Below are positions 2,483 to 55,639 of a stretch of 64,000 bases of DNA, piece by piece. Made by a program: the position numbers and the translations under genes. This DNA comes from Ustilaginoidea virens (lineage: Eukaryota; Ascomycota; Sordariomycetes; Hypocreales; Clavicipitaceae). Under the pieces are notes generated by a model. It had not been told where the DNA came from. It saw only the letters and a program-made list of their open reading frames with translations, and did not search any database. Position 1 is the stretch's first letter, and the number at the start of each line of letters is the position of its first letter. The DNA lies in the NCBI RefSeq assembly GCF_000687475.1, contig NC_057318.1:496001-560000 (forward strand), written 5' to 3'.

Positions 2483-3231
2483 TATTGCAATTCTTAAGGT
2501 TACTATAAAGCAAAGCCTTACTAGCTAGCTAGATGGCACAAGACTGTCTGCGACCTGTGAACTAATCTTAGTATAAATACTAGATTTTTCACCAAGTCCT
2601 AAGACTATACAAGTGCTATAAAGCAAGGCAAGTGTAAAGGCAAGGCAAATATAAGATAACCAGAAAACGCAGGGAAGGTAAGAAGTTAAGAGGCATATAG
2701 TGCATTAACAGACTCGATTGTGCTACCCTTCTACTATCTAGAAAGAAGGGGGAAAGCTATCCTATATATACACGAAGGAGGGGTGGGCCCAGGCATCCAA
2801 GGTAGCCAGTAAGAAAGCTCCCCGTAATGCTCGCTATGATACGTCAGCAACCCCGCTATATCCGACCTTTCCAACCACCCTAACCACCGCACTAGTAATT
2901 AGTCACCGCACTAGTAACTAACCACCACACTAGTGGACTAGCCACCACGCTAGTAGGCCACCACGCTAATTTAGCAATGCCACACCACGCTAGTAGGCCG
3001 CCACCACGCTAGTAGGCAACCACGCTAATTTAGCAATGCCACACCTTTTTTAATAAGGCCTACCTTACTTGATATACAGTAAATAATCTACTGAAAATCC
3101 TAAGGTAAAAGGCAAAGGCCTAAGGTTGGTAAGACTACCGTAAGTCCAAGAGGCGGTATAAGGGCCAGAAGGTTAGTAGGCCAGTAGGGCATAAGGCCAG
3201 CAGCCTAATAGGCTACTATAGGATTTTAACA
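2483..3231 (-). repeat. B1 3' LTR
   Basis: 749-bp family B LTR, reading TGTTAAAATCC to GAATTGCAATA on the minus strand. It contains a TATA-like TATATATA at 2763-2770 and, at about 2880-3050, degenerate short tandem repeats of the type CCACCACGCTAGTA. Nearly identical to 22893-23641, including those repeats, which shows that these two form a pair. Confidence 0.93.
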
Positions 3232-17740: not shown

Positions 17741-18407
17741 TATTGCAATTCTCAAGGTTACTATAAAAGCAGAGCCTTACTAGCTAGCTAGATAGCACGA
17801 GACTGTCTGCGACCTGTGAACTAATCTTAGTATAATACTAGATTTTTCACGAAGTCCTAAGACTATATAAGTGCTATAAAGTAAGGCAAGTGTAAAGGCA
17901 AGGCAAATATAAAATAACCAGAAAACGCAGGGAAGGTAAGAAGTTAAGAGGCATATAGTGCATTAACAGACTCGATTGTGCTGCCCTTCTACTATCTAGA
18001 AAGAAGGGGAAAAGCTATCCTATATATACATGAAGGAGGGGTGGGCCCAGGCATCCAAGGTAGCCAGTAAGAAAGCTCCCCGTAATGCTCGCTATGCCAC
18101 GTATATAATACGTCAGCAGCCCCACTATATCCAGCCTTTCCAACCACCCTAACCACCACACTAGTAATTAGCCACCACGCTAGTGACTAACTACCACGCT
18201 AGTAACTACCCACCACACTAGTGGACTAGCCACCACACTAGTAGGCCGCCACCACACTAGTAGGCCCACCACGCTAATTTAGCAATGCCACACCTTTTTT
18301 TAATAAGGCCTACCTTACTTGATATACTGTCAAGGATTCGGGCTACGCCCGTATCATGCTAAGGACAAGCTTGCGCGCAGCATAGTGCCAAGGGGATATA
18401 GGTGTCA

Positions 18408-18437
18408 ATTGTACCAAGTGTGGTAACTTGGTACAAT
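18408..18437 (+). other. TRIM1 LTR inverted repeat
   Basis: ATTGTACCAAGT (18408-18419) and ACTTGGTACAAT (18426-18437) form a perfect 12-bp stem with a 6-base loop. The right arm is also the segment complementary to the putative primer site after the LTR, so the two pairings compete. Present again at 18763-18792 and in TRIM2. Confidence 0.8.
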
Positions 18438-18541
18438 ACGTACTCTTTTGTCTGGCCTAACGGTCAGACAGAAGATTAGGTTTTTACCTGGCGATGTGCG
18501 CAGACACCCGCTTAGGGCCCAATTGGGCCACATCGTTACAT

Positions 18542-18556
18542 TTGTACCAAGTTACC
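18542..18556 (+). promoter_or_regulatory. TRIM1 putative self-priming primer site
   Basis: TTGTACCAAGTTACC begins one base after the 5' LTR. It is the exact reverse complement of GGTAACTTGGTACAA in the LTR. Tf1 and related fungal elements prime minus-strand synthesis from the 5' end of their own RNA in this way. Whether the transcript starts near 18422 is not shown by the sequence. Confidence 0.6.
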
Positions 18557-19175
18557 CAAGGTCACAGGTTCGAGTCCCGTATGTGGTGCGTGCAGCGGGC
18601 TCCTTACCTGGGCTTACAGAGGATGGGACTGGCCTCTGGGGGGTGCGTGGTATCAGATGGCCGGCTGCGGAGAGGGGAGCTATGTCAAGGATTCGGGCTA
18701 CGCCCGTATCATGCTAAGGACAAGCTTGCGCGCAGCATAGTGCCAAGGGGATATAGGTGTCAATTGTACCAAGTGTGGTAACTTGGTACAATACGTACTC
18801 TTTTGTCTGGCCTAACGGTCAGACAGAAGATTAGGTTTTTACCTGGCGATGTGCGCAGACACCCGCTTAGGGCCCAATTGGGCCACATCGTTACATATAC
18901 AGTAAATAATCCACTGAAAATCCTAAGGTAAAAGGCAAAGGCCTAAGGTTGGTAAGACTACCGTAAGTCCAAGAGGCGGTATAAGGACTAGAAGGTCAGT
19001 AAGCCAGTAGGGCATTAGGCCAGCAGCCTAATAGGCTACTATAGGATTTTAACACCCCCTCTGATTAGCTACTGTAGTAGCAAGCTAATCGTGTAAAGGA
19101 TAGGGAAAGAAAATGCAGTAAAAAGTGCTAAGGAAAAACATAAGAAAAACCTTAGTAAAAGTATGTTAGTATAAG

Positions 19176-20800
19176 TTAGCAGGCCCTAAGACCTAGTAAC
19201 TCGCGGAACCTAGTAAATTTAGGGCCCGGCAGTGGCTTAGTAAGGCCGTCAGCAGGCATACTATTAGTAGGTAAGTAGGTAATTTTAACCAAGCCTAGCT
19301 GGGCTTGCTCCCTAATATACCGGAATTTTAATAGCGTATGCTTAGTGCGAGCATGCTGATTAGGGTCGTTAGAATTCGAAATAGAGCCCTAGTTATCGCA
19401 GTATAGCGGTATAGGGCGTACAATATCAATTTCCAGCTCCTTACAAAGGTTAAAAAGCCACTGTACTTCACGGATAGTCTCAAGTAATACATCGGATTCA
19501 GCTTCTAAAGTAGATAGTACTACTAAAGAGGCTCGCTTAGAACGCCAGCTAATAGGACCACTATTAATAGTAGTAAGGAAGCCTCCAGTAGATTTAGAGG
19601 TTTCTTTACAGCCAGCAAAATCGCTATCAGAATAAGCGGTTATAATAGGCTGTTGATTGCTTTTAGTAAAGCAAATAGCTAGGTTCTCAGTGCCTTTAAG
19701 GTAGCTAAAGCTGCCTTTCGCAGCATTTAAATGCACATTAGTTGCCTTAGACATAAACCGAGAGAGGTATTGGGTAGGAAATGCTAGGTCGGGCCTAGTC
19801 ATCATCATAAGCCACATTATAGTGCCAGTAAGGCTCTGATAAAGGCTCTGATCAGTAGGGCTGAGGTCTTTTCCACTAGATTCATTTAGAATCCCTGGTT
19901 GAAGTGGAATTAGCTGAGGTTTAGTATCCTGTAAGCCGAATTTAGCTAAGACCTCTGCTATAAATTGGGCTTGGTATAGCCACAATAGACCTTCCTTCCT
20001 ATTTCGTATAATCTGTACGCCTAGGAAGAAGGAAGCCAGACCGCGGTCTTCTATAGCATAGACCTTATGGAATTTCCTTTTTAGCTGGTTAATATAAGTT
20101 ATATTTGGACCAACTAATAGGCAATCGTCAACATAGGTGACGATAAAAGTGCTGGTTTGCTTATTATAAAAGACGGCAGCATCAGAAGCTAAAGGTAAAA
20201 AACCTTCACTAGAAATCAGGTCTTTTAGCCAATATTGCCATTCGCGGGGTGCTTGTTTTAGCCCGTATAGGGCCTTCTTTAGCAAGATAGCTTGCTTAAT
20301 AGAAGGGTTAAATCCAGCTTCTTTAAGCAAAGTTAGTAGCCGTTGGCGCTGTATATTAGACCAAAGCTTGCTATCAGTTAGTAAACTTTCCGTAAATTCA
20401 AGGAATCCATCAGGAATATCCATATAAATAGTCTCAGAAAGTTCGCTATTTAGAAAGGCGCCTATAAAGTCTTCTGACTTAGGAAGGTAATCCACGGTGG
20501 CATTAGTATTAGTAATATCATCCGGGGTAGCATTAGTAATGCTAGTAAAATTAGTAGGGTCCGGCATGCTTTCTAGGTCATCCGGTATAGCATTAGTGCT
20601 AGTAATGCTAGTAAGGTTAGCAGAGTTAGTAGGGTCAGGAATGCTTTCTAGGTCATCCAGTAAAATAGTAGGTTCTTTACTGCTAAATACCCCCTCTGAA
20701 CCTGTATTTTGCCCTTTGTGAAAGTCTCCTTCTAGGCCACTAGAAATAGGGCCTATACCTTCATTTTGGTGGATAAAGGTAATAAAGGTTGTTTTTTAGT
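19176..20800 (-). pseudogene. B2 pol remnant: reverse transcriptase and RNase H with internal deletion
   Basis: The frame ends at the stop at 19176 and is open from 19389 to 20567 (392 residues). From its start it has a linker with repeats such as MPDPTNFTSITNATPDD, then jumps in frame from YLPKSED directly into FIGAFLNSELSETIYMD. The RT finger region that B1 has before this point (about 600 bp) is deleted. The palm follows with TYVDDCLLVG, then RNase H with YSDSDFAGCKETSKSTGGF. One stop at the end fits Gln to TAG. Upstream, at an A6 run (near 20795), the frame shifts relative to gag-protease. As part of a deleted element it cannot make functional RT, although most of the RT palm remains readable. 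Confidence 0.85.
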
Positions 20801-22892: not shown

Positions 22893-23641
22893 TATTGCAA
22901 TTCTTAAGGTTACTATAAAGCAAAGCCTTACTAGCTAGCTAGATGGCACAAGACTGTCTGCGACCTGTGAACTAATCTTAGTATAAATACTAGATTTTTC
23001 ACCAAGTCCTAAGACTATACAAGTGCTATAAAGCAAGGCAAGTGTAAAGGCAAGGCAAATATAAGATAACCAGAAAACGCAGGGAAGGTAAGAAGTTAAG
23101 AGGCATATAGTGCATTAACAAACTCGATTGTGCTACCCTTCTACTATCTAGAAAGAAGGGGGAAAGCTATCCTATATATACACGAAGGAGGGGTGGGCCC
23201 AGGCATCCAAGGTAGCCAGTAAGAAAGCTCCCCGTAATGCTCGCTATGATACGTCAGCAACCCCGCTATATCCGACCTTTCCAACCACCCTAACCACCGC
23301 ACTAGTAATTAGTCACCGCACTAGTAACTAACCACCACACTAGTGGACTAGCCACCACGCTAGTAGGCCACCACGCTAATTTAGCAATGCCACACCACGC
23401 TAGTAGGCCGCCACCACGCTAGTAGGCAACCACGCTAATTTAGCAATGCCACACCTTTTTTAATAAGGCCTACCTTACTTAATATACAGTAAATAATCTA
23501 CTGAAAATCCTAAGGTAAAAGGCAAAGGCCTAAGGTTGGTAAGACTACCGTAAGTCCAAGAGGCGGTATAAGGGCCAGAAGGTTAGTAGGCCAGTAGGGC
23601 ATAAGGCCAGCAGCCTAGTAGGCTACTATAGGATTTTAACA
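22893..23641 (-). repeat. B1 5' LTR
   Basis: 749 bp, nearly identical to 2483-3231. A TATA-like TATATATA at 23173-23180 is the best candidate for the core promoter driving the B1 transcript toward lower coordinates. Confidence 0.93.
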
Positions 23642-41565: not shown

Positions 41566-44383
41566 ACCCTCTAAGCCAATACCGCCCCTAATACCAGATA
41601 TTACGAATCGCGGTATCGCGGCCTATAGGCTCAAATGCCTCAACTACTAGCTCTAACGCCTTATCTAATAATACTAAGAATAGGTATGGCATCTGGCCCT
41701 TCCCGCTAATATCGGCCTACTTAGGCCGATAAACAGACCGTCTTGATGGGAGGACCGGTAAACCTGGCCCGACCTGGGTTATAGGATAACCCCGCTAGAG
41801 ATCCCGCCAGCCTACCGTAAGGCTATCGATAAGCTATTCCGGAATACCCTCCGGAAGATTATACCCGGAAAGCCTATATAGAGGCCGGGTTTAACTAAGA
41901 AGATTATTCCCGAACCGGGTTTAATAATATATCTAAAAAGATATCCGACCTCTTATAAAGCTATCGTATAGAGGATAGATATAGCGGCAAAATGGATGAT
42001 TTTATTATACTAAAAGTTATCTTTTTTAAGAGTAAATGCTGCCTATTAGGATTACCCGACTATGCATTCGCTAGAGCTTTTTAAATTATACTAATCGGCA
42101 ATACTAAGACCTATTACTTTGATAATATTAAACGCATTCGCAATACCCTCACTTTTGACGATATAGTCTATAAAGTTAAGAGCTATTTCGAAAATAAGAG
42201 TATAAAGCAATTCTATTTGCACTATTAGAATAGAATAACGCTCTAATTAACTATCGCGAAATATCCCGATAAGTTAAAGCTAGAATGCCTTAATATCCTA
42301 TTGGAAGAACTTTAATGCCTATATCGTAGTCTTTTTTCCCCCTTTATAGCTGATATAGAGCTTTACCGATAAGTCCTTAACGCTATAAGGGATACCCCTG
42401 AGTGTAGCTAGGTGCTGTATCGATATGCCCCTATATTTGAAGGCCTCGCTACTAACCTATGGCGATCCCTTTCTATTTACGAGACTACCTATATGACTTA
42501 ATAATATTATTTCCTTTAATAATAGCCTTAGCAATATTAGGATGTTAAAGATATTGATATCGCTAATAATATAGCGTTATTCACAGATCGTAGATATGGT
42601 TAATCCTATAGCCGGTATCAACGCCCCTAACGATACGGACCCCCTTAACGCCGATTTGGCCCATATTAATAGTATTAATAATAGAATCGTGCCCTTTTAG
42701 ATAGGCCCCATTAAAGATGTTATTTCGTTTGCAATAAAATAGGGTATTAGTTATTTAACTACTCTGCTAAAGAGCAATAAGAATTAAAGGATTGATAGAT
42801 GAAGAACCGATCCTACTGTACTGCCCCTAATGATAAGAAATTCCGTATTTTCTTATAGGAATATAAAGAGCCTGGGCCTTAAGGCCTTAAAGAAAAAGAT
42901 ATAGAGGCTAACTTTAACGATATTATCGGTAATATCGAAGTAATAATAGCAGGGGATATATAATGGGATGCAGAGAATACTGCTATACCATAAATCACAG
43001 CCACTTAGTATTTCTAAGCCCCTACGTAAGTAGAACCGTCATCATCTATTAAGATATTATAGGCCCTACAAGATAAATTATGCCGATACGCCTTTTTATA
43101 AGTTAACCCCTTCTAAATGCCCTTACCGAACTGTAATTCTGCCTTTCTAGAAGAAGAACGCTATAGCGATTATACCTTCCGCGGAATCTTACTGGATACC
43201 AGCGCTTCCGGCCTATTAATAGCAGGCCTGGGTTAAGCAAAGGCACTAATAAGATTGATGAAGACCCTAACTATCGAGACAACTAATAAAAAGCATATAG
43301 TAAACTTCGGCGCAGGCTCCGCCACCTCTTCCGGCATACTAAATATCCTGACGATATTCGGTAATATCCTTTTCCACGTTCTTAATAGCAGTACCCCCTT
43401 TCTTTATTCTATCACGGATATAGATAGGATAGGCGTAAAGCTTAATAATATTAATAACCTATTAATCCAAGGGGATACTAAGGTCCCTATTATTAGGAAA
43501 TAGGGACATCTATAGTAGACTCTTAATGCTATAGATATTGCAGCCTTCTATCTATCGTCGCAGGAAATCTATTAGCTATATTATCGATTTAGGCACCCCT
43601 CTATTAATAGGCTTACTAAATTACTTTAATAGGCTAGTTATAATGATATTGACTGTAATATCATCGAAAGTATCACCTATATATACTATTAATGCCAGAT
43701 AAATGTAAAGGCACCTAGCCGATTTAAATTTAAATTAAAGGATGACTGCTAATTTAACTACAAGATAATTGTAGATATCCTTTATATTGATAATCGGCCG
43801 GTATTACATATTGTGGATGCCGTAATAAGCTTCTAGGCAGCTAGGTTCCTTAATCTATAAAGATAGAAGGCTTAAGACGTTTAGAATGCCCTTAAGGAAT
43901 ACTAGATTGATACTTACCTTAGCCTGCCGGATTGGATAGTTTACGATGCTAGATCTAACTTCGCTTCTGCCGAATTCCGCTATAATGCCCGGCTTCTATC
44001 TATTAATGTGGATGAAATTCCTATAGAAGCCTATAATAGCATTGGCAAAGTCGAGAGATATTACGCCTTATTACGCCAAGCCTATACTATCGTTGATAAC
44101 GAAGTAGGCGACCTAATAATAAAGGAATAGAAATTACAGCTCGCTATAAAAGCTATTAATAATTCTGCTGGACCTAACGGTCTAGTGCCTACGTTACTAG
44201 TCTTTAGAGTATATCCTCGACTTACAGATGATTCACCCCCTAGCTTATCAGTATTATAATATGCTTTAATATTACGAAAGGCCATTAATGAAGCTAGGAA
44301 ATGCCTCGCTAAGCGCCAGGTTTATAATACCCTCGCCTAACGGAATAGCCTAGATACGCAGCCTATCTACCGACTACCCCTAT
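41566..44383 (+). pseudogene. C1 gag C-terminus, protease and integrase
   Basis: The C1 frame continues after D1. It holds the gag domain (about 42000-42300, homologous to C2 54507-54701). Next is a protease whose core follows a Leu-Asp-Thr-Ser-Ala-Ser site near 43195 and is open at 43255-43503 (LYSITDIDRIGVKLNNINN). The GAG-pre-integrase and the integrase part end at the C2 insertion (flank CCTAT). The frame is in register with the RT piece at 60103 onward once C2 is removed. Confidence 0.83.
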
Positions 44384-53165: not shown

Positions 53166-55073
53166 TGTGATAAGTAGACCGAGGAGCTATTTAGCTATAT
53201 CAATAAACGGCTCCTACGGGAATTCCGAATAATACTATAGGAACGAGGGGTATACGTTAGAAGCATAGGGTCATCAACAGTTAAGACCCTTACCTACTGC
53301 CTCCAATAAGAGAATATGCCTAAATAGCCTTAAGAAGAAATAGATCTCTAATTTGTATATAAGACCTTTATCTCTCGGTTAAACCTAGATAGGGAATAAT
53401 TAGTCCCTACTGCTTTTACTGAACGGGAGATGCAAATGAACTAGGATACCCCCTCTATTATAAGCTTAAGGAATTCACTTCCTGCTATAATTGTTCGAAT
53501 ACCCTTATAGATACTATTATAAATACCCTTATGAATACCCTCGCGATTACCCTTGCGAAGACCTTTATAAGCCCCTTCGACCCCTAGGGACTTTATAATA
53601 CCAACGGCACAATAACCCCTTATCCCTCTATCTATATTAAAGAAAGCCCCTATTCCTATTAATACTAAAGAAGAAAGGGGCCGGCCGCTATAATAGAAAG
53701 GGAAAGCGCCTATTTATAGGCCGCTATTTAAGATAGGGGAAAGCTCCCGATAATAGTAATATTCAACGGACGATGACTATAGCCCGACCGACTAAATACT
53801 TCATCCTAGGGGTTATACCCCTAGCCGAGCTAGCCGAAGCGGCTATCCTAATACCCCTCGGAATTATAATATGCCTATAAGGACCAGAGGTCAGGTTATA
53901 GGCCCTAATAATGTGCTTTAATTAATAGAGAGCGCCGACAGTAATACCCTTAAAGTTGCTAGCGATACCCTCCAAGCCACCAATATCAATATTCCCCGAT
54001 ATACCGCTACTAGCGGCACCGGGCAAGCCCCTAATATTGATAAAACAGCTGCCCCTAATGCCAGATATCACGAATCATAGTATCGCAGCTACAACCTATA
54101 GGCCCGGATGCCTTAACCACCGGCTCTAATGCCTTACCTAATAATACTAAAGATAGGCACGGCACCAGACCCCTCCCGGCACTATCGGCCTACCTAGGCT
54201 GATGAACGGACCGTCTTAATAGGAGGACCGGTAAACCTAGACTAACCCGGGTTATAGGATAACCTAGCTAGAGATCCCGCCAGCCTACCATAAGGCTACC
54301 GATAAGCCGTTCCGGAATACCCTTTAGAATACTACTAAGAAGATTATACCTAAAGAGCCTATATAGAGGCTGGGTTTAATAATATTTCGAAGAAGATATC
54401 TAACCTCTTATGTAGCTATCGTATAGAGGATAGATATAGCGGTAAAATAGATAACTTCTTTATACTAAAGGTAGTATCCTTTAAGAGTAAGTGCCGCCTT
54501 CTAGGATTGCCCGATTATATACTTATAAAAGCCTTTCAAATCATACTAATCGGCAATGCTAAGACGTATTACTTTAATAATATTAAACGCATTTGTAATA
54601 CCCTCACTTTCGACGATATAATACGCAAAGTCAAAAGCCATTTTAAGAATAAGAGCATAGAGCAATTCTATTTACACTATTGGAATAGAATAACGCTTTA
54701 ATTAACTATCGCGAAATATCCTAATAAGTTAAAGCTTAAATGCCTTAATATCCTACTAGAGGAACTTCAATGCCTATATTATAGTCTTTTTCCCCCCTTT
54801 ATAGCTAATATAGAGCTTCATCGATAAGTACTTAACGCTATCAGGGATACCCCTAAGTATAGCCAGGCCATATATTATTATGCCTCTATATTCGAAGGTC
54901 TCGCCGCTGATCTATAGCGATCCCTTTCTATCTATAAGACTACCTATATGACTTAACAGCATCAATTCCTTTAATAATAATAGCAGCCTTAGTAACATCA
55001 GGATATTAAAGATGCTGACATTGATGATAATATAGCGTTATTTACAGATTGTAGATATAGTTAATCCTATAAC
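53166..55073 (+). pseudogene. C2 gag, central and C-terminal part
   Basis: Continues C2 gag after C3 with LLREFRIILQERGVYV near 53205-53255, homologous to C1 at 35050. A Pro/Arg/Leu-rich stretch follows, and then the conserved gag domain, open at 54507-54701 (IILIGNAKTYYFNNIKRICN). It is cut at 55073 by TRIM2. The frame across TRIM2 and into the protease at 56255 is continuous once 566 bp (element plus duplication) are removed. Confidence 0.82.
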
Positions 55074-55634
55074 TGTCAAGGATTCGGGCTACGCCCGTAT
55101 TATGCTAAGGGCAAGCTCGAGTATGCGCGCAGCATAGTGCCAAGGGGATATAGGTATCAATTGTACCAAGTATGGTAACTTGGTACAATACGTACTCTTT
55201 TGGCCGTATGGTTAAGAGAGTAGGTTTTTACCTAGCGATGTGCGCAGACACCCGCTTAGGGCCCAATTGGGCCACATCGTTACATTTGTACCAAGTTACC
55301 CAAGGTCACAGGTTCGAATCCCGCATACGGTGCGCGGGCTCTTCATCTGGGCTTACAGAGGACGTGCTACTAGCCTCTGGGGGGTGCGTGGTATCATATG
55401 GCCGGCTGCGGAGAGGGGAGCTATATCAAGGATTCGGGCTACGCCCGTATCATGCTAAGGGCAAGCTCGAGTATGCGCGCAGCATAGTGCCAAGGGGATA
55501 TAGGTGTCAATTGTACCAAGTATGGTAACTTGGTACAATACGTACTCTTTTGGCCGTATGGTCAAGAGAGTAGGTTTTTACCTAGCGATGTGCGCAGACA
55601 CCCGCTTAGGGCCCAATTGGGCCATATCGTTACA
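55074..55634 (+). mobile_element. TRIM2: 561-bp terminal-repeat retrotransposon in miniature
   Basis: Two 211-bp direct repeats (55074-55284 and 55424-55634) flank a 139-bp internal part; target duplication ATAAC (55069-55073 and 55635-55639). The repeats differ at about five positions, all transitions. The self-complementary pair recurs: GGTAACTTGGTACAA at 55174-55188 in the LTR and its exact complement at 55286-55300 just after it. A tRNA-like sequence is split over the LTR edge. GCCGTAT (55203-55209) can pair as a 7-bp acceptor stem with ATACGGT (55325-55331), and between them lie an A-box-like TGGTTAAGAGAG and a B box GGTTCGAATCC (55311-55321). In TRIM1 this acceptor pairing is absent. 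The purine tract GGAGAGGGGAG precedes the 3' repeat. Confidence 0.88.
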
Positions 55635-55639
55635 ATAAC

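Follow-up and report, generated by a model that had tools for sequence, protein, structure and literature searches.

Self-priming is known from full LTR elements, and the self-complementarity of Tf1 spans 11 nt. For Tj1, the available part of one report describes self-priming together with the layout of its primer site and folded leader (PMC4600332), and another text, in its available part, names self-priming as a mere possibility with no clear mechanism (PMC6934838). Among TRIMs, the Helenus type (TRIMp3) comprises 113 families in rust fungi alone according to the accessible sections of its survey (Kojima 2024, PMC10886601), and TRIMs have also been sought in the ascomycete genus Pseudocercospora (PMC13041039, accessible part), so that the remark of an earlier, sequence-only reading of the locus described here, that TRIMs are little described in fungi, needs correcting. 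The same sections of the Helenus survey place a tRNA-like part with an A and a B box inside the LTR, describe solo LTRs, a 5-bp duplication in fungi and a primer site that fits either the 3' end or the anticodon loop of a tRNA, and associate the fungal families with Copia; all fungi given as hosts in its Table 1 are basidiomycetes. They also present Cassandra and Ajax, TRIMs with a piece of 5S rRNA in the LTR (PMC10886601). In the literature searched, which includes texts available in part and has most subscription papers outside its scope, we found neither a TRIM with a found self-primer nor an account of the family described below. A 2026 genome paper on U. virens tallies repeats by class and does not name TRIM in its available part (PMC13233505), and that of PMC9970103 has no TRIM account, only software names.

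The family examined here is represented by two copies, TRIM1 and TRIM2, in a stretch of 64,000 nucleotides of the Ustilaginoidea virens genome (C3:496001-560000, hereafter the window). Like Helenus, it is short, has LTRs but no coding capacity, carries boxes of the A and B type, makes 5-bp duplications and leaves solo LTRs, but its B box lies outside the LTR, its primer is likely its own RNA, its likely partner is a Gypsy element and its host is an ascomycete. Both defining Helenus features that we tested fail, since the B box is internal in 34 of 34 copies rather than in the LTR with the A box, and the primer site is not complementary to a tRNA (best match 8 nt among 33 tRNA genes, within the shuffled range); the TRIM1 family is thus not a Helenus. 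As in the self-priming Ty3/Gypsy elements Tf1 and Tj1, a primer site behind the LTR pairs with the presumed 5' end of the RNA, and the leader is predicted to fold. Unlike those full elements with gag-pol, the TRIM is non-coding, and its self-match reaches up to 15 nt. Because it encodes neither a reverse transcriptase nor an integrase, it is a dependant of the Tf1/sushi group and not a member of it. With Cassandra and Ajax it shares promoter-like features of a small RNA gene, theirs being the 5S rRNA piece; TRIM1 itself has no 5S rRNA match at E ≤ 10.

The two window copies and their family

TRIM1 (18328-18895) and TRIM2 (55074-55634, within another host repeat) are laid out in Table 1. The sequence-only reading had taken them for a TRIM family with LTRs of 211-213 bp, a purine tract and 5-bp target duplications, inserted in different host elements, and all of this is borne out: the LTRs measure 213 and 211 bp, the duplications are TATAC and ATAAC, and both the flanks and the empty-site paralogues differ between the two copies. 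The LTRs of TRIM1 are identical, as had been read, and the TRIM2 pair has five differences, every one a transition. Judged by eye from its flank, the host of TRIM1 is an LTR of a minus-strand Copia element with a reverse transcriptase frame at 19389-20795. The joined flanks of TRIM1 have empty-site paralogues in the window at 2930-3227 (90%), 23340-23637 (90%) and 27002-26688 (85%), and those of TRIM2 at 42469-42786 (77%) and 50549-50258 (71%), each of the latter with at least 30 gap positions. The two copies are therefore separate insertions, because their flanks and duplications differ and their joined flanks align to copies of the host repeats that lack the element. That they form a single duplicated segment and no mobile family, the outcome named beforehand as a refutation, is so improbable that it hardly needs weighing: both do lie in repeat-rich DNA, but each has its own duplication, flanks and filled and empty paralogues, and dozens of insertions across the genome carry a duplication of their own. 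The element also lacks coding capacity, as proposed. Its longest ATG frame covers 95 aa, and internal lengths among copies are 139, 140, 142, 143, 144, 158, 164 and 171 nt, variants that shift this frame, so no protein is conserved.

Table 1. Features of TRIM1 and TRIM2 (positions in the window)
Feature	Position	Strand	Basis or remark
TRIM1 target duplication, left, TATAC	18323-18327	.	
TRIM1 5' LTR, TGTCA...TTACA, 213 bp	18328-18540	+	
TATA-like GATATAGG in TRIM1 LTR	18395-18402	+	word present in 33/33 copies counted (TRIM2 outside the 33)
Self-primer GGTAACTTGGTACAA	18422-18436	+	exact reverse complement of primer site; presumed RNA 5' end
A-box-like TGGCCTAACGG	18453-18463	+	at tip of predicted hairpin in LTR
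Five-T run in TRIM1 LTR	18481-18485	+	may act as Pol III terminator or as loop of a hairpin
TRIM1 internal part, 142 nt	18541-18682	+	
Primer-binding site TTGTACCAAGTTACC	18542-18556	+	complementary to 18422-18436
B box GGTTCGAGTCC	18567-18577	+	inside tRNA T-arm-like stretch
Polypurine tract GGAGAGGGGAGCTA	18669-18682	+	directly 5' of 3' LTR
TRIM1 3' LTR	18683-18895	+	identical to 5' LTR (213/213)
TRIM1 target duplication, right, TATAC	18896-18900	.	
TRIM2 5' LTR, 211 bp	55074-55284	+	second-type A-box-like segment at 55201-55211
TRIM2 internal part, 139 nt	55285-55423	+	B box 55311-55321
TRIM2 3' LTR	55424-55634	+	ATAAC flanks TRIM2 at 55069-55073 and 55635-55639

We searched the genome (37.16 Mb, 8 contigs) with the whole element, which gave at least 44 matches at E ≤ 1e-3 (40 of 92 candidates scored), with the LTR (at least 40 matches; 40 of 147 candidates scored) and with patterns for the primer site (54 matches, none for the reversed pattern) and the purine tract (51 matches, one for the reversed pattern). 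Merged, these searches define 58 places, 47 of which carry both patterns. One of the 58, C6:1355177, matches only the purine-tract pattern and has no LTR match; we rejected it as a family member, and the family therefore occupies at least 57 places.

Thirty-four copies with two LTRs, TRIM1 and TRIM2 (locus L047) among them, have LTRs of 207-225 bp and total lengths of 556-603 bp. Outside this set are six of 39 loci (L029, L034, L037, L044, L045 and L046), which have a single full LTR or are incomplete, and the copies fetched later; counts given below for 33 copies omit TRIM2. An exact 5-bp target duplication flanks 27 of the 34, and four of five bases agree in two more. The remaining five have neither (L028, L030, L033, L036 and L038), L028 and L038 being in tandem arrays. 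Six further two-LTR copies (L085, L086, L087, L090, L093 and L094) all have an exact 5-bp duplication, as do six of seven solo LTRs (L045, L046, L097, L099, L100 and L101; L098 matches at four of five bases). The family is a TRIM by all features tested: short LTRs, a length below 1 kb, a primer site, a purine tract, a duplication of 4-6 bp and the lack of coding capacity. Tandem arrays of TRIMs sharing LTRs occur at L088, L091 and L038, and at L091 three LTRs lie between one pair of AGCAT duplications, as if a dimer had inserted. At L082 (near C5:5068600) a TRIM is adjoined by an inverted piece of its own LTR.

The LTRs within 33 pairs differ at 261 positions in total. Of these, 187 show C/T with an A following or G/A with a T preceding, and 10 are transversions, a signature of RIP. 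Four of the 33 pairs are without any difference, in agreement with the recent movement that had been read from TRIM1.

Proposed self-primer, predicted leader and candidate partner

Three features escaped the sequence-only reading: the self-primer, a Gypsy family whose LTR start matches, and the conservation of the B box. When reverse-complemented, TTGTACCAAGTTACC, which lies just 3' of the TRIM1 5' LTR, is identical to LTR bases 95-109, and the TATA-like GATATAGG begins 27 bases upstream of LTR nt 95. Self-complementarity between primer site and LTR extends over 10-15 nt in 23 of the 34 copies; the longest exact self-match is 15 nt in eight copies, 14 in four, 12 in eight, 11 in two and 10 in one. 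Against self-priming counts that it is at most 8 nt (6-8) in the other 11 of the 34. As a control, 354 other internal 20-nt pieces gave a mean self-match of 5.7 nt and a maximum of 9. We folded the leader, taken to run from around LTR nt 95 as far as internal nt 48, for six copies chosen from those with a self-match of 12-15 nt, and in all six the 5' end is predicted to form 14-15 pairs with the primer site. The predicted energy of the TRIM1 leader is −72.1 kcal/mol, compared with −45.5 ± 4 for 200 shuffled sequences, none of which was as stable (z = −6.65).

No such complementarity was found to tRNAs. The best complement of the primer site among 33 tRNA genes (33 of 63 matches listed, repeats and mitochondrial ones left out; CCA appended to 20 of the 33) is 8 nt, and 200 shuffled sites gave a mean of 7.0 and values up to 10; with a fit no better than that of shuffled sites, we rejected a tRNA as the TRIM primer. 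The Copia primer site served as a positive control and has 14 nt complementary to a tRNA-Met (CAT) gene (L060), taken for the initiator. As modelled, the TRIM signals match the layout of Tf1/sushi-type self-priming, in which the LTR stretch could form the 5' end of the RNA with its predicted fold. An inverted copy of the self-primer lies upstream, near the presumed RNA start, in TRIM1 (LTR nt 82-109) and also in the Gypsy LTR, where L079 has it at nt 133 and 181.

That some partner must supply proteins, as the sequence-only reading had held, is upheld by inference. The searches revealed no full-length element that carries the TRIM LTR or primer site; of 147 candidates, the LTR search scored 40. 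Around the 54 primer-site matches there is no larger element: 49 have a purine tract no more than 200 bp away and the other five belong to loci L088, L091 and L094, where LTR copies are spaced at about TRIM length. With primer sites beside purine tracts or in such TRIM-spaced arrays, a larger element with the TRIM LTR was rejected. The locus with the top reverse transcriptase score, C3:1954423, was rejected as a partner as well, since it has no LTR pair and was judged LINE-like.

The best candidate partner, judged from sequence likeness, is a Gypsy family that shares the LTR start: TGTCACGGGCTCGGGCTACGCCCG in Gypsy and TGTCAAGGATTCGGGCTACGCCCG in the TRIM agree at 21 of 24 bases, and the Gypsy LTRs end in TTTACA (L079, L004) where the TRIM has GTTACA. 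These LTRs were assigned to Gypsy by the order of the reverse transcriptase and RNase H matches adjoining them. Two Gypsy copies (L107, L037) have an 11-nt self-primer, AGTCTATTTAA, whose site, like that of the TRIM, is offset from the LTR by one base. L003, from another subfamily, has AGTTTTATTAA in place of AGTCTATTTAA in its LTR, so that the self-match is lost there; the geometry is thus kept in two of the three Gypsy copies read with a primer site. The Gypsy LTR-start pattern has 313 matches in the genome with up to three mismatches (none for the reversed pattern), an upper figure for Gypsy LTR starts, since TRIM LTRs differ by three and may be included; the matches listed all have at most two mismatches and Gypsy letters. 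The match to Gypsy is confined to the LTR ends and extends neither to the remainder of the TRIM LTR nor to the TRIM's internal part. The motif TTGTACCAAG is present upstream in the TRIM LTR as well, so that part of the Gypsy match could be a repeated motif.

A working Gypsy partner was not seen among the matches listed, despite the four of 33 TRIM LTR pairs that are identical. All 150 RT_RNaseH_2 matches listed (150 of 306 candidates scored) contain stops, and the stop-free RVT_1 matches among those listed are at C8:46050, on a small contig taken for the mitochondrial genome, and at C2:3103665. The latter (C2:3103665-3103910) resembles a reverse transcriptase and lies in a stop-free frame of 370 aa. 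Whereas all the Gypsy RT_RNaseH_2 matches listed carry stops, certain Copia elements keep frames of 1000-1688 codons open; it seems that these have escaped RIP.

These open Copia frames bear on the question of who moves the TRIM. If Copia, of which the genome has many elements with long open frames, supplied the proteins, the likeness to Gypsy LTR ends would be old or coincidental, and such a reading can draw on stop-free Copia frames of up to 1688 aa among the matches listed, on a Copia duplication that is also 5 bp (GAAGG; one copy, by eye) and on the fungal Helenus, which the accessible part of their survey considers to be mobilised by Copia (PMC10886601). We nonetheless regard it as unlikely. 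The Copia LTRs read start with TGTTAAAATCC and end in GCAATA (ends set by eye), and the TRIM shares neither, whereas its LTR start agrees with Gypsy as described; the Copia primer site pairs over 14 nt with the tRNA-Met gene and that of the TRIM does not. As the origin of the TRIM LTR or primer site Copia was rejected, because the sequences do not match. The likely partner is thus a Gypsy element, apparently dead in this genome, or a relative of it that escaped detection; Copia is the rival.

Taken together, we consider it probable that this is a non-autonomous TRIM family of 0.56-0.6 kb copied by Ty3/Gypsy machinery of the self-priming (Tf1/sushi) type. Its RNA would begin near LTR nt 95 (18422) and terminate in the 3' LTR, and its first 15 nt would pair with the primer site just 3' of the 5' LTR. 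RNase H would then nick the duplex, the freed 5' end would prime minus-strand DNA and the purine tract would prime the plus strand; a Gypsy integrase recognising the common LTR end would insert the DNA with a 5-bp duplication. Each TRIM RNA would carry its own primer and so need neither a tRNA match nor the primer site of its partner. If correct, such a cycle would explain how a non-coding element that shares only LTR ends with its partner continues to be primed, and would extend TRIMs with Pol III boxes to Ascomycota. With a genome marked by RIP, a candidate partner that looks dead in all the matches listed and some TRIMs that look fresh, it would also allow a direct test of how elements that parasitise other parasites survive the loss of their hosts.

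Box-like sites and the question of Pol III

We built box models from 18 A-box and 24 B-box words of this genome's tRNA genes, picked by eye; the A-box model holds 11-base A boxes only, and tRNA genes with longer spacing were left out. The B box lies at internal nt 27 in all 34 copies, scoring 17.7-17.8 in 29 of them (the maximum for tRNA genes is 17.8) and 9.8-15.5 in five. Across the window, in either orientation, no site scores 14 or more apart from the B boxes of TRIM1 and TRIM2. A-box scores of at least 10.5 number nine in the window, two of them in TRIM1, so an A site alone would not convince. The internal part of L041 shares 18 bases, CACAGGTTCGAATCCTGT, with a tRNA gene read as tRNA-Ser (L120), and shuffled internal parts aligned as well to any tRNA gene in 0 of 500 cases for L041 and for TRIM1 and in 5 of 500 for L025. 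In the alignment of 33 internal parts, transversions or gaps (pooled) occupy one of 1320 cells in columns 1-40 and 878 of 4422 in the rest; something appears to keep the B-box stretch, though the primer site shares these columns.

Two versions of the A site exist: of 33 copies, 23 carry TGGYCTAAYGG or a near variant of it and 10 carry the TGGCCGTATGG type. Both are found with short and with long internal parts (17, 6, 6 and 4 copies; n = 33), so the element is a mosaic. The first version is identical in many copies to the A box found in a tRNA-Gln gene (L077, TGGTCTAACGG), and in L025 to that of a tRNA-Arg gene (L048, TGGCCTAATGG); the second is unlike the A boxes of tRNA genes, scoring 7.3 where those score 10.0-15.7. 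When whole LTRs were aligned to tRNA genes, shuffles did as well in 19 of 500 cases for TRIM1 and 3 of 500 for L031, where the best alignment in both was to tRNA-Gln and covered the A site. The figures were 28 of 500 for L041, whose alignment fell in another part of the LTR, and 389 of 500 for L025. Since these alignments are weak against shuffles, we rejected a tRNA gene inside the LTR and retain only an A-box-like site. The Rfam tRNA model scores 15.8 bits on TRIM1 (E 2.5; gathering score 29) and finds nothing at E ≤ 10 on nine further loci.

Together, the internal B box and the A-box-like site of the LTR might constitute a split Pol III promoter. The layout recalls the promoter of the yeast U6 gene SNR6, with its TATA-like site, A box inside the gene and B box far downstream past a T run; the likeness is one of layout, not of kinship, and SNR6 compares in its promoter only. 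We would give somewhat better prospects, roughly an even chance, to transcription by Pol II from the TATA-like site, with the B box as a captured relic of a tRNA or SINE and the A-like site as the tip of a hairpin. A run of at least five T, present in 32 of 33 5' LTRs, lies between the A and B sites in TRIM1 and L041 and fits Pol III poorly; both versions of the A site fold into a predicted hairpin of 13-14 bp, so that structure alone could keep them; and the low score of the second version and the Rfam results, below the gathering score in TRIM1 and empty elsewhere, point the same way. What Pol II transcription accounts for less readily is a B box of nearly the best possible score, fixed in position in every copy, in nearly invariant columns (the primer site also being there), and confined in the window, at scores of 14 and above, to the TRIMs. 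Only tentatively, then, do we suggest a self-primed element transcribed by Pol III, with a promoter split over the LTR border, its TATA-like site and A box on the LTR side and its B box on the internal side. Since such a promoter would be complete at the 5' LTR alone, it would face no competition from the 3' LTR. If this were so, the TRIM RNA would bring its own primer and lead a SINE-like life on Gypsy proteins without tRNA priming.

In L025, L086 and L092 the T-run hairpin of the LTR (AGGTTTTTACCT) is swapped for a different hairpin with an A-rich loop, a replacement that hints at selection on RNA structure.
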